DNA of 37,651 nt from Bacteroidia bacterium (GTDB taxonomy: Bacteria; Bacteroidota; Bacteroidia; CAIKAF01): the NCBI GenBank assembly GCA_016742095.1, contig JACVCJ010000035.1, forward strand, positions 1 through 37,651. The letters are read 5' to 3'. The translations under genes were made by a program, and so were the position numbers. Position 1 is the first letter of the stretch, and every line of letters starts with the position of its first letter. Below, in pieces: positions 1,837 through 37,651 of this stretch. The notes beneath the pieces were generated by a model. That model saw only the letters and a list, made by a program, of their open reading frames with translations, did no database searches and had not been told where the DNA came from.

Positions 1837-1948
1837 AACTTATCTTTCTCCGGCTATACCGGGGTTGAATGTAGCACCTTCTTCGCGTAATGCGAAGGGT
1901 TGCTAAGACTTCATCGGGTCAATTCCCTCCGTCTTTCTGGATAAGAAA
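1837..1948 (-). promoter_or_regulatory. SAM-I (S-box) riboswitch aptamer
   Basis: Read on the minus strand, the P1 helix pairs CTTATC with GATAAG. Between them lie the S-box landmarks: AGACGGAGGGAATTGACCCGATGAAGTC, then TTAGCAACC, a hairpin (CTTCGC with GCGAAG), AAGGTGCTA and the closing GGAGAAAGATAAG (longer stretches described by position 1841-1945). These match the conserved core of the SAM-I class, which binds S-adenosylmethionine and then favours the terminator at 1764-1799. It controls metB and probably hom, so methionine synthesis is switched off when SAM is plentiful. Confidence 0.93.
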
Positions 1949-16709: not shown

Positions 16710-17153
16710 ACGGGAAGATAACGGCGGAGCACCCAGGGCTATTGTAGCAGGTGAATTACGGACTTTCTTTCCCGACGGTACGAATTAACTGACGATCAAT
16801 ATATTTTAACAAAAAACAGATAATTTAACTTTCATTTTTTCGATCTCTTTTTTAGGTTTGTCATCCAAACCAATACCTTATGCTGTTATGACCTGTCCTT
16901 CTTTTTTACTTGGACTTTTCCCGTAATTTTTGTTTTGTGCGTTAAATGCTGACCTGTATGTGCAGGCATCAGGATTTTTTCCGTGCATTCCGCCGCGTCT
17001 CCGCGTGATGATCATTCACGCCTTTCATTTTCGTATATACGTTAATGCGGCATTCGTATGTCCTTCTCCCAATGTAACTACGTAGTTTTTTTAATAACGG
17101 AGGCAGCCGAAAATCCGATCCCAGAGTAGGCAAAAAATCCAATCCTTACTAAC
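16710..17153 (+). promoter_or_regulatory. 444-bp leader region of the 633-residue gene
   Basis: No gene is seen. A perfect -7 box TAGGTTTG lies at 16853-16860, overlapping a hairpin GGTTTG-TCATC-CAAACC. If used, it gives a 5' leader of about 287 nt. Further dyads are GCGTGA-TGATCAT-TCACGC near 17005 and AACTACGTAGTT followed by T near 17078. Other functions cannot be seen. Confidence 0.4.
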
Positions 17154-19055
17154 ATGAGTAACTATGTTATCAACGGGAAGCTGAAGGGTTTCCTGTGCAA
17201 AGACTGCAGTGAACCGATCTTTCCTGCAGAAGTGTACCTGTACCTGCCCTGGCAGGAAAAAAGTCTGCTGGCCAATGTGGTGGCAGGCACCAAAGAAACG
17301 TTCCGGCAGGTTAACGAAAAAGAGGCAAAACAGCGCGAACATCTGCTCCTTACCAAAACAGAGACCGATGCCGAGGGCAACTTCCGCATAGAAGTAGACC
17401 CCAAACATGTCGGTTCGGCCTTCGACATCGACTTTGTATGTAAAAGCGTTCCCCGCAAGCTGTTTGGCGGCATCCAGGGAGAGCCCGAACCACCGGCGCC
17501 GAAACAGTTTCATCTTACGACCATTGCACCGCGCTGGGCCATGCAGAAACAAGCCGGAAACCCACAGGAAACACCGGAGATGTTCTTTAAATGGGAATAC
17601 GTTATCCCGGCCAACTGGTGGTGTATGATCCGCGGAGCACTCTTTGATGCATGGCTGATCTGCGGCCACCTGCGCAACTGCAAAACGGGCAAACCGATCG
17701 CCCGTGCCACAGTACAGGCCTGGGATGCCGACCTGCTCTCCGACGATTTCCTGGGCTCGGCGGTTACGGATGCCAATGGTCATTTCCGCATCGATTACAG
17801 CAGTGCCGACTTTCGCCAGAATGCCTTTCCGCTCAACCTGGAGACCGATCCTGCCTGGCCTTTTTTCAGTAAGGGGCCCGATATCTATTTCAAAGCAACG
17901 CTGGGTGGGGTGAGTCTTGTGGACGAAGGACATGCCCAGCGCCGGAACAATGTGGGATATTGTCTTTGCGTAGACCTGTGCACGGAAATACAGGTGGCAG
18001 ATAACCCCGACGGGAGTTTTCCGAGTGCCTGGACCGGTATCGGTAAGCGCTTTAACATCTCCTGGGACGGCCATGAAGATGATTTTGATGCCGAAGGTTA
18101 CGCCGGGCATGAGAAATATGCACTGTGCGGGAACATTCGTCTTACCGGGCAGGCTCCGGCCAGGTCTGCAGCCGGGAACCCCGTTCAGTACCGCTTTCTG
18201 GTTAGTCACCACACTACGCCCAATGGTTCGGCCAGTCCGGCATTTACCGACTATAAAACCGTAGGCGTAACAGCGGGGCTGTTTGTTCCTTCCGTAGTGG
18301 CCAAGCTTATACGTAACACATTTCCGTTCCCTGTTTATTCCGTGAGAAGTGCACAGGAAGACTTTGATGCAGAAGGCTGGTTCGACATCAACAAAGCTAT
18401 TGAACGGACAAGGACGCTGAACGGCCTGGGTGATCTGGGTAATTATTCCCTGATCGATGAAGATACCCTGATCACCCTGAACACGGCGGCGTTGACCACA
18501 GCTCCGGATTTCTCGGGAATACCGCTGGATGCCGGAGATCCCTTCCCGGCAGACCGGAAGGTAGCCATAGAGAAAATTGCGATCCGCTTTGAAATACGCG
18601 AAGTGACCGACGCTGCAGCTCCCGCGTATGCTATCGTAGCCGGCAGCGGAAAAACGCTGAACTCCGCTATAATAAGTAATAACAGGGCTTTTGGCAGGCT
18701 CGATATCGACAAACTTAAAGCGACGGGCAGCTGTGCTCCTATCAGCGGCGATATACATGCGCTTTACACGCTGTACCATCCACACCTGCAATCGGCCTCC
18801 ATTACCCTGTGGAACAACAGCCATACGATCACCCGCAGCCTGAGCGATCCATTCCTTCCCTTAAGCGGAAATACCGATGCTTCCGTGCAGGATAATAACA
18901 GCACAACGCTTAAGATCAATAACCCGGACAATCTTTCTCCATGTACTTACACATTAGCACTGGATGTGTCGGCACGCCTTCATAACGGGGATGATATCAC
19001 AGGATATCTCGGTCGCAACAGCGATACTGTAGAAACGTTCTTTTACGGAGGTTAG
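17154..19055 (+). CDS. Large protein with two transthyretin-like beta domains
   Basis: A 633-residue protein without signal peptide or membrane helix, so probably cytoplasmic or exported by an unknown route. Two parts look like carboxypeptidase-regulatory/transthyretin-like domains: residues about 5-115 (ending TKTETDAEGNFRIEV and DFVCKSVPRK) and about 165-280 (ICGHLRNCKTGKPIARATVQAWDAD, then VTDANGHFRIDY). The TDAxGxFRI strand pair is shared by both. Residues 280-633 show beta-rich sequence with aspartate-rich stretches (HEDDFDAEGY, AQEDFDAEGWF) that may bind calcium. I do not recognise a family for the whole protein. It has a long leader and a strong terminator, so it is a single-gene unit. 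Confidence 0.75.
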   Translation: MSNYVINGKLKGFLCKDCSEPIFPAEVYLYLPWQEKSLLANVVAGTKETFRQVNEKEAKQREHLLLTKTETDAEGNFRIEVDPKHVGSAFDIDFVCKSVPRKLFGGIQGEPEPPAPKQFHLTTIAPRWAMQKQAGNPQETPEMFFKWEYVIPANWWCMIRGALFDAWLICGHLRNCKTGKPIARATVQAWDADLLSDDFLGSAVTDANGHFRIDYSSADFRQNAFPLNLETDPAWPFFSKGPDIYFKATLGGVSLVDEGHAQRRNNVGYCLCVDLCTEIQVADNPDGSFPSAWTGIGKRFNISWDGHEDDFDAEGYAGHEKYALCGNIRLTGQAPARSAAGNPVQYRFLVSHHTTPNGSASPAFTDYKTVGVTAGLFVPSVVAKLIRNTFPFPVYSVRSAQEDFDAEGWFDINKAIERTRTLNGLGDLGNYSLIDEDTLITLNTAALTTAPDFSGIPLDAGDPFPADRKVAIEKIAIRFEIREVTDAAAPAYAIVAGSGKTLNSAIISNNRAFGRLDIDKLKATGSCAPISGDIHALYTLYHPHLQSASITLWNNSHTITRSLSDPFLPLSGNTDASVQDNNSTTLKINNPDNLSPCTYTLALDVSARLHNGDDITGYLGRNSDTVETFFYGG

Positions 19056-19592: not shown

Positions 19593-19606
19593 TTCTCATT
19601 CTCTTG

Positions 19607-19973
19607 TGGAGCCGGAGGGATTCGAACCCTCGTCCAAACACGTGACCCATAAGCTTTCTACACGTTTATTCTGCCTTTGCATTGTAGGCCCGCAACCTGA
19701 GGACAGACACCCTAATTACGGACTTAGTTGCTGTTTCTTATCCCTGCACCGCAACACAGCAGGGACCAGCCTTATTTGATCGAGGCTTCCGGACCTGATC
19801 CTAAAGGCTCGGACCAGGGGAAACCGCATGTTGCTAATCTTACTGATTAGGCAGCCATTGCAAAGTTGTAGCTATTGCCACTTGAAAGTTGATGGTCGAG
19901 ATTTGAGGGGAAACCAACAGCCCCCTACGTGCTTACCTACCGACCTGCCGCGCTGTCAAAACCAGTCGACCCC
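19607..19973 (-). ncRNA. ssrA: tmRNA (transfer-messenger RNA)
   Basis: On the minus strand the RNA starts GGGGTCGACTGG and ends with GGTTCGAATCCCTCCGGCTCCA; its ends pair as a tRNA-like acceptor stem. The T arm and loop are clear. The tag frame at 19850-19879 encodes GNSYNFAMAA followed by TAA; with the charged alanine the tag is (A)GNSYNFAMAA. It frees stalled ribosomes and marks the products for breakdown. The CCA end is not encoded. Length, about 367 nt, is within the normal range. Confidence 0.95.
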
Positions 19974-36598: not shown

Positions 36599-36633
36599 AA
36601 AACCGTCCGGAATCCCCCCCGGGCGGTTTTTTT
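36599..36633 (+). terminator. Terminator of the T9SS gene
   Basis: AAAACCGTCCGG pairs with CCGGGCGGTTTT (one G-T wobble) and is followed by T, 23 nt after the stop. Confidence 0.9.
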
Positions 36634-36710
36634 ATGCCCCGGCGGGAGCAAAGACCGGCTTTCCACGAAATGTAGAAAAATACCCCGCCGTATTTCCGGC
36701 TTCAAATGCC

Positions 36711-36722: not shown

Positions 36723-37076
36723 ATGGATATTGTCGAACTCCGCGAGTATTGTATTTCAAAACCGCACAGCAGCGAAGGCTTCCCTTTCGGGCAGGACGTG
36801 CTGGTATTTAAAGTGGCCGGTAAAATGTTTGCCCTCTGCAGCATCGATGCTCCCAATCCTTCGGTAAACCTGAAATGTGATCCCGAAAAAGCCGAAGAAC
36901 TGCGCGAACTGCACCCGGAGATCACAGCGGGCTATCATATGCATAAGCGCATGTGGAACACGGTATCCCTGCAGGGCCGCCTGAGCGATGCCTTTATACG
37001 CGGCCTCATCGATCACAGCTACGAAGAAGTAGTGAAAAGTCTTACCCTGAAAAAACGCCGCGAACTGGGCCTATAA
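36723..37076 (+). CDS. MmcQ/YjbR family protein
   Basis: A 117-residue single-domain protein with family landmarks: ELREYCISKPHSSEGFPFGQDVLVFKVAGKMFAL, SVNLKCDPEKAEELRE and AGYHMHKRMWNTVSL, ending in a helix SYEEVVKSLTLKKR. The fold is a CyaY-like alpha/beta structure. It is often called DNA-binding, but the function is not proven. Length is normal (about 115-120). The stop codon overlaps the T tract of a minus-strand terminator. Confidence 0.88.
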   Translation: MDIVELREYCISKPHSSEGFPFGQDVLVFKVAGKMFALCSIDAPNPSVNLKCDPEKAEELRELHPEITAGYHMHKRMWNTVSLQGRLSDAFIRGLIDHSYEEVVKSLTLKKRRELGL

Positions 37077-37188
37077 AAAAAACCGAAGCAACATACTGTT
37101 CGCTCCGGTTAGTTAAGGCATGAAAAAAAGCAAGGTCTCCTTTTCAAGGAATATGTTCAGCGGGTCAAAACCCGAAAAAGGTATTCGT
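37075..37188 (-). ncRNA. Candidate small RNA with own promoter and terminator
   Basis: On the minus strand, a perfect -7 box (37195-37202) predicts a start near 37188. The RNA would contain CGGGT-TTTG-ACCCG (37161-37174) enclosed by CCTTTT/AAAAGG (37139-37144 with 37176-37181), then an unpaired stretch. It ends in a strong hairpin at 37081-37110 (AACCG/CGGTT with inner pairs) and a run of eight T. Length is about 110 nt. The hairpin plus enclosing stem and the length recall short Bacteroidota 6S-like or Flavo-1-type RNAs, but that is not established. Confidence 0.55.
37081..37110 (-). terminator. Terminator of the candidate small RNA
   Basis: AACCG pairs with CGGTT with inner AGC/GCT and AAC/GTT pairs; the minus strand continues with eight T (37075-37082), overlapping the end of the MmcQ-like gene. 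Confidence 0.75.
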
Positions 37189-37194
37189 GCATAA

Positions 37195-37202
37195 CAAATA
37201 TA
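37195..37202 (-). promoter_or_regulatory. -7 box of the candidate small RNA
   Basis: TATATTTG on the minus strand matches TAnnTTTG exactly; no clear -33 element is visible. Confidence 0.5.
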
Positions 37203-37651
37203 TGTACGTAAACGACAAATTTTACTTTTTGTTTCGCCTTTCTGTCTTTTTTCGACCAATTTAATGCACTCTATTCAGCGAAGGTCCGGGACTGGTTTTC
37301 AAACCACTGTAAAAAGCGCTCTGACGTATATACGTTTCTAAAGGGGAATGGGCATTTTCCCGGGGAAGTGCTATGTGTTCAGATACCTTGCGGTACATTT
37401 CCGCTCAGGAGACCGGAGGGTTTCAGAGAGTCTGCAGCTGTTTCTCTCTACGCAAACTCACTATATCTCTTTCGTACCCGTTCATTTATGCCCGGCGCCT
37501 GTAGCTGACCTATCACAAAGGAAAGTTATCTGTATATAGTAAAGGGTTCATTATAAATAGGGTAAATATTTATACGAAAAGATTTTATGATTTTGATCCC
37601 GGGTATATGCATGAATAAAAAAGCAGGCAATATGCTACATAGATAAAAAAT
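37203..37651. other. AT-rich end region without recognised gene
   Basis: No convincing ORF is present; a 63-codon frame at 37348 has no protein-like pattern. Dyads include GACGTATATACGT near 37324 and AGAGAG/CTCTCT near 37425. The region may be a leader of a gene beyond the window, but nothing can be assigned. Confidence 0.35.

Follow-up and report, generated by a model that had tools for sequence, protein, structure and literature searches.

At the right-hand end of the window, that is, the whole stretch of 37,651 nucleotides analyzed here, a plus-strand gene of the YjbR/MmcQ family is met by a convergent minus-strand element that, judged by its sequence features, looks like a real, unannotated intergenic small RNA gene equipped with a promoter and an intrinsic terminator of its own. 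On the minus strand, the sequence of 37075-37202 is TATATTTG-TTAT-GCACGAATACC...AACCGGAGCGAACAGTATGTTGCTTCGGTTTTTTTT, and the region is single-copy within its own genome. The features of the locus are as follows.

36723..37076, plus strand: convergent YjbR/MmcQ-family gene, 117 aa (Pfam PF04237, 8.6e-30)
37195..37202, minus strand: -7 promoter box TATATTTG (TAnnTTTG, Bacteroidota primary sigma factor; read from the sequence, consensus and position from PMC7366714 and PMC9723704)
37179..37196, minus strand: MarR-type operator-like site TGTTATGCACGAATACCT (position weight matrix of 21 family sites, its own excluded)
37075..37190, minus strand: predicted small RNA of ~116 nt, 41% GC (start deduced from the -7 box, end at the T tract; fold z -4.48)
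37149..37186, minus strand: hairpin 1 of the predicted fold (GAAUA...CGGGU-UUUG-ACCCG...UAUUC), its 5' strand being half of the operator
37121..37146, minus strand: hairpin 2 of the predicted fold (UGAAAAGGAG-ACCUUG-CUUUUUUUCA)
37111..37120, minus strand: linker UGCCUUAACU, mostly unpaired (unpaired probabilities)
37075..37110, minus strand: intrinsic terminator, 11-pair stem and eight T (hairpin search, folding against shuffles)

Just upstream of mmcQ, another strong terminator, AAACCGTCCGG...CCGGGCGGTTTTTTT (36600-36634, plus strand), follows the gene of a 997-aa repeat protein.

Promoter, terminator and predicted fold

The box at 37202-37195 is a perfect copy of TAnnTTTG, a motif that occurs 27 times in 75 kb (the window, both strands). 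As the box of Flavobacterium psychrophilum was mapped at -12 to -5 (PMC9723704), the predicted start is G37190, giving an RNA of ~116 nt. The upstream element of published promoters usually sits at -33 (PMC7366714); here it is weak, with no match at the usual distance, and the nearest TTTG (37219-37216) lies only 13 nt before the box. The -33 element cannot be identified in F. johnsoniae (PMC7366714) and is not regarded as a requirement. The minus strand of 37075-37651 has no ORF of at least 60 aa, and no convincing ORF fits the RNA. Upstream, the sequence can be followed only to the contig end at 37651; these ~450 nt (37202-37651) are devoid of a convincing ORF, and 37201-37340 displays no unusual folding on either strand.

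The terminator stem, AACCGGAGC-GAACAGTATGTT-GCTTCGGTT, has 11 pairs and is followed by T8, with a folding energy of -14.7 kcal/mol (z -4.4). Its T tract (37082-37075) and the mmcQ stop codon (37074-37076) overlap by 2 nt. With terminator-like hairpins defined by E <= -12 kcal/mol and at least 7 of 8 T, a shuffled window yields ~2.75 of them over its two strands, so that the terminator alone is not decisive; what counts is its placement just downstream of the box, as at this density such a hairpin would lie on the same strand and no more than ~150 nt further downstream with p ~0.006.

The segment 37075-37195 folds with -35.6 kcal/mol (z -4.48), which none of 200 shuffles equalled. After removal of the terminator, the z-score is -3.6 for 37111-37190 and -2.65 in a slightly longer frame. 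The terminator-less stretch of the plus strand also folds (z -2.9), so folding by itself does not set the strand, which is set by the box and the T tract. The predicted architecture consists of two stem-loops, an open linker and the terminator. The most accessible stretches, according to the unpaired probabilities, are the 5' tail and UGCCUUAACU, which could be candidate sites of pairing with mRNAs.

These results agree with the sequence-only reading of this DNA, which had described a perfect -7 box, an RNA of about 110 nt with a hairpin (two internal hairpins in our prediction), a strong terminator with eight T and no ORF on the minus strand, as well as a T tract running into the end of a convergent, mmcQ-like gene.

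It might be argued that there is no RNA gene at all, and that an isolated -7 box happens to lie near a stand-alone terminator, for instance one that closes a longer minus-strand transcript begun beyond the contig end. The weak -33 element, the end of the contig at 37651 and the few terminator-like hairpins in each shuffled window would all be compatible with this, but it would leave the coincidence of box, internal fold, terminator and operator at one place to chance, and the minus strand of 37202-37651 has no ORF; we regard it as very unlikely. A short frame following AAGGAG (TTG CTT TTT TTC ATG CCT TAA) precedes the terminator; however, no minus-strand gene comes after it, and an attenuator or leader was discarded.

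Relation to known RNA families and to mmcQ

A scan of all 4227 Rfam families, at gathering thresholds and at E <= 10, gave no match to the RNA region at gathering thresholds, and the weak matches at E <= 10 belong to unrelated families only. The sequence-only reading had compared the element, in size and shape, with short 6S-like or Flavo-1 RNAs of this phylum and suggested a covariance scan for 6S, Flavo-1 and Bacteroidales-1, none of which matched the region even at E <= 10. With no covariance-model match and a fold unlike that of 6S, this identity was dropped; the proposed small RNA converging on mmcQ survives as an uncatalogued one, whereas the kinship does not. The RNA shares with 6S-Flavo (RF01685), Flavo-1 and Bacteroidales-1 only the size class and the phylum, and differs from them in fold. 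A divergent 6S RNA would suit the size near 110 nt and the lack of 6S-Flavo elsewhere in the genome. Nevertheless, the RF01685 model has matches in only 2 of 99 genomes of the class, none over the cut-off, so this absence is uninformative. Moreover, two separate stem-loops and a terminator take the place of the long rod with a central bubble, and no 6S family matches even at the permissive E-value, which makes a divergent 6S RNA extremely improbable.

Elsewhere in the window, the Rfam scan also identified a tRNA and the following elements.

19604-19973, minus strand: tmRNA gene, an ordinary family member
1837-1947, minus strand: SAM riboswitch, an ordinary family member
17097-17132, plus strand: DUF805b RNA motif (RF02914), 39.0 bits, just before the ORF starting at 17154 (plus strand)

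A covariance model built from the single RNA sequence found only the RNA itself, both in the order (16 genomes) and in the class (395 genomes); conservation at the locus thus backs neither the RNA nor the operator. The RNA looks lineage-specific, a narrow distribution also seen in Bacteroides thetaiotaomicron, where 27 of 49 high-confidence sRNAs from intergenic regions are strain-specific (PMC7366714). Relatives of mmcQ among the genome contigs have an identity of up to 63%, none being close enough for a congener.

The convergent arrangement raises the alternative of a cis-acting antisense RNA, or of control of mmcQ by convergent transcription, in which an mRNA reading through from mmcQ would be complementary to the RNA over its whole length. 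The 2 nt shared by the T tract and the stop codon speak for it, as does mmcQ itself, after which no plus-strand terminator was found. By contrast, the RNA ends where the coding region ends, so that mmcQ is not covered, and the arrangement is not kept beside the mmcQ orthologues of the family, which by synteny have other genes downstream and no RNA. Antisense control of mmcQ is thus rather unlikely in our judgement.

An operator-like site at the predicted start and a probable fatty-acid regulon

When the region was compared with 60 relatives by BLAST, all matches were short, but several clustered on the -7 box and the first ~20 nt of the RNA, which is how the operator was found. The matched sequence in the other genomes, TTTGTTATGCAnGCATACyTTTTT, is located upstream of marR (L004, L012) and of a phasin-like gene (L007). 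At the 5' end of the RNA, GTTATGCACGAATACC departs by one mismatch from the palindrome TATGCA-n-GCATA. The operator core TATGCACGAATA (37182-37193), with one mismatch to TATGCAnGCATA, spans approximately -3 to +9 relative to the predicted start. This site, absent from the sequence-only reading, is the most informative feature of the locus.

We scored the site with a position weight matrix built from 21 intergenic family sites (7 from the same genome and 14 from others), the window site being left out. The stretch 37179-37196 reaches 17.2 bits, compared to 7.7 for the next best in the 37.6-kb window. An exact calculation gives this score a tail probability of ~7e-7 per position, which corresponds to 0.026 sites expected per window. 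Matrices restricted to the same genome (n=7) or to the other genomes (n=14) gave much the same result. In addition, the flanks GTT...ACC of the window site also match the sites at phasin and marR genes.

In the same genome, TATGCAnGCATA occurs at 9 forward places, 2 inside genes and 7 outside, versus 3 for the reversed control pattern. It precedes marR, followed by a 3-hydroxyacyl-CoA dehydrogenase gene, as well as two acyl-CoA dehydrogenases, a lipase and an acylase-like gene, and is found twice between phasin-like and gyrase/topoisomerase-like genes. Among these names, MarR and 3-hydroxyacyl-CoA dehydrogenase (3HCDH) pass the Pfam cut-offs and the phasin-related match falls just under its NCBIfam cut-off, while the remaining ones were read from the sequences. 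Across the family, most genera have the site in front of marR; phasin-like, acyl-CoA dehydrogenase, carboxylase-like and ceramidase-like genes carry it upstream as well. A TAnnTTTG box lies 10-12 nt 3' of the operator at many marR genes, and 22-24 nt 3' of it at phasin-like genes and one acyl-CoA dehydrogenase gene. From gene content and site sequence, these sites appear to mark a coherent fatty-acid regulon, whose regulator would most simply be an autoregulated MarR protein. In a narrow search of the open-access literature on MarR and fatty acids, this operator was not found to have been described in Bacteroidota.

On contig C45 (G000:C45:6118, L138:1400-3012), the operator TATGCACGCATA stands 10 nt before a TATATTTG box at marR, which is followed by the 3-hydroxyacyl-CoA dehydrogenase gene. 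This marR (protein encoded at L138:1546-1980) is apparently autoregulated, and the gene pair recurs in several genera of the family.

The site at the predicted start differs from the other regulon promoters in its order, being downstream of the -7 box instead of upstream. Its core mismatch changes GCATA to GAATA, and hairpin 1 of the predicted RNA has GAAUA paired to UAUUC, a pair that the consensus base would break. The departure may reflect a dual constraint, on protein binding and on RNA folding, or a coincidence. The alternative to be weighed here is an intergenic sRNA that is constitutive or otherwise regulated, with an operator-like stretch in its 5' end by chance. Per whole genome, about 2.6 sites scoring this high are expected by chance, the site departs from the palindrome, and its position relative to the -7 box is unusual. 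However, the probability that one falls by chance as close as 20 nt to the predicted start is ~1e-5, and the GTT...ACC flanks are also those of sites at phasin and marR genes. We assign this alternative an appreciable yet clearly minor probability. That a fatty-acid regulator of the MarR type directly controls the sRNA, and that the operator serves at the same time as the 5' strand of hairpin 1, we put forward tentatively, at somewhat short of even chances.

Proposed regulation and comparison with known systems

The promoter box, the terminator, the fold, the operator-like site and the composition of the regulon are read in the DNA itself; transcription, MarR binding, the ligand, regulation in trans and its targets are what we infer in the following scheme. 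We propose, at about even chances, that the locus encodes a free-standing sRNA of ~116 nt that belongs to a MarR-type fatty-acid/acyl-CoA regulon, being repressed and then released on fatty-acid use. The primary sigma factor would transcribe 37190-37075 of the minus strand, and the intrinsic terminator would end the RNA. In the absence of fatty acids, the MarR protein encoded upstream of the 3-hydroxyacyl-CoA dehydrogenase gene on C45 would sit on the operator and block initiation; such repression is the simplest reading, since a protein at -3 to +9 would block initiation. An inducer, probably an acyl-CoA, would release the protein, and the RNA would then be made alongside the β-oxidation, phasin and lipase genes, presumably adjusting other mRNAs by base pairing. 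A crude duplex scan, covering a few start regions, was dominated by composition and gave no signal, the mRNAs of the regulon not being favoured.

FabT is a lipid-responsive regulator of the MarR family with an autoregulated operator. The present system resembles FabT-type regulators in the short palindrome at the promoters of marR and of lipid genes. An identity of the C45 MarR protein with FabT itself was ruled out, as it scores 29 bits against a model cut-off of 200 bits.

As to function, the nearest parallel is probably FarS of Vibrio cholerae, an sRNA in a feed-forward loop with FadR (PMC9438474), although origin and wiring differ and no sequence relation is claimed. FarS is cut by RNase E from the 3' UTR of fabB and works with Hfq, and FadR links it to fatty-acid synthesis (PMC9438474). 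It is an sRNA under the master regulator of fatty-acid metabolism, as we propose for the RNA here; unlike FarS, however, the latter has its own promoter and terminator and a MarR-type site, and would accompany degradation genes. In Bacteroides, obvious homologues of Hfq and ProQ are missing (PMC7366714). The intergenic sRNAs of B. thetaiotaomicron, including GibS (145 nt), have a TAnnTTTG-type promoter, an intrinsic terminator and a similar length (PMC7366714). This likeness is one of description, and GibS differs in responding to N-acetyl-D-glucosamine (PMC7366714).

The link between the RNA and the MarR fatty-acid regulon, which is likely and moderately supported, is new here. Post-transcriptional control of fatty-acid use and storage in Bacteroidota has been little explored, and linking an sRNA to a metabolic regulator that is defined offers a ready hypothesis on when the RNA is made. 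The analysis also outlines a family-wide MarR regulon with a clear site, comprising marR and the genes of 3-hydroxyacyl-CoA and acyl-CoA dehydrogenases, a phasin, a lipase and ceramidase-like proteins.

Further operators were seen in other genomes. In two genomes of one related genus (L184, L186) the site lies upstream of neutral-ceramidase-like genes, and in L185/L187 between isocitrate dehydrogenase-like and secreted-protein-like genes, which suggests a wider lipid regulon. In another member of the class (G039, L005:1512), an operator precedes a TAATTTTG box that is followed by no ORF and points towards the next gene, which runs convergently; this may be a further non-coding transcript driven from an operator.
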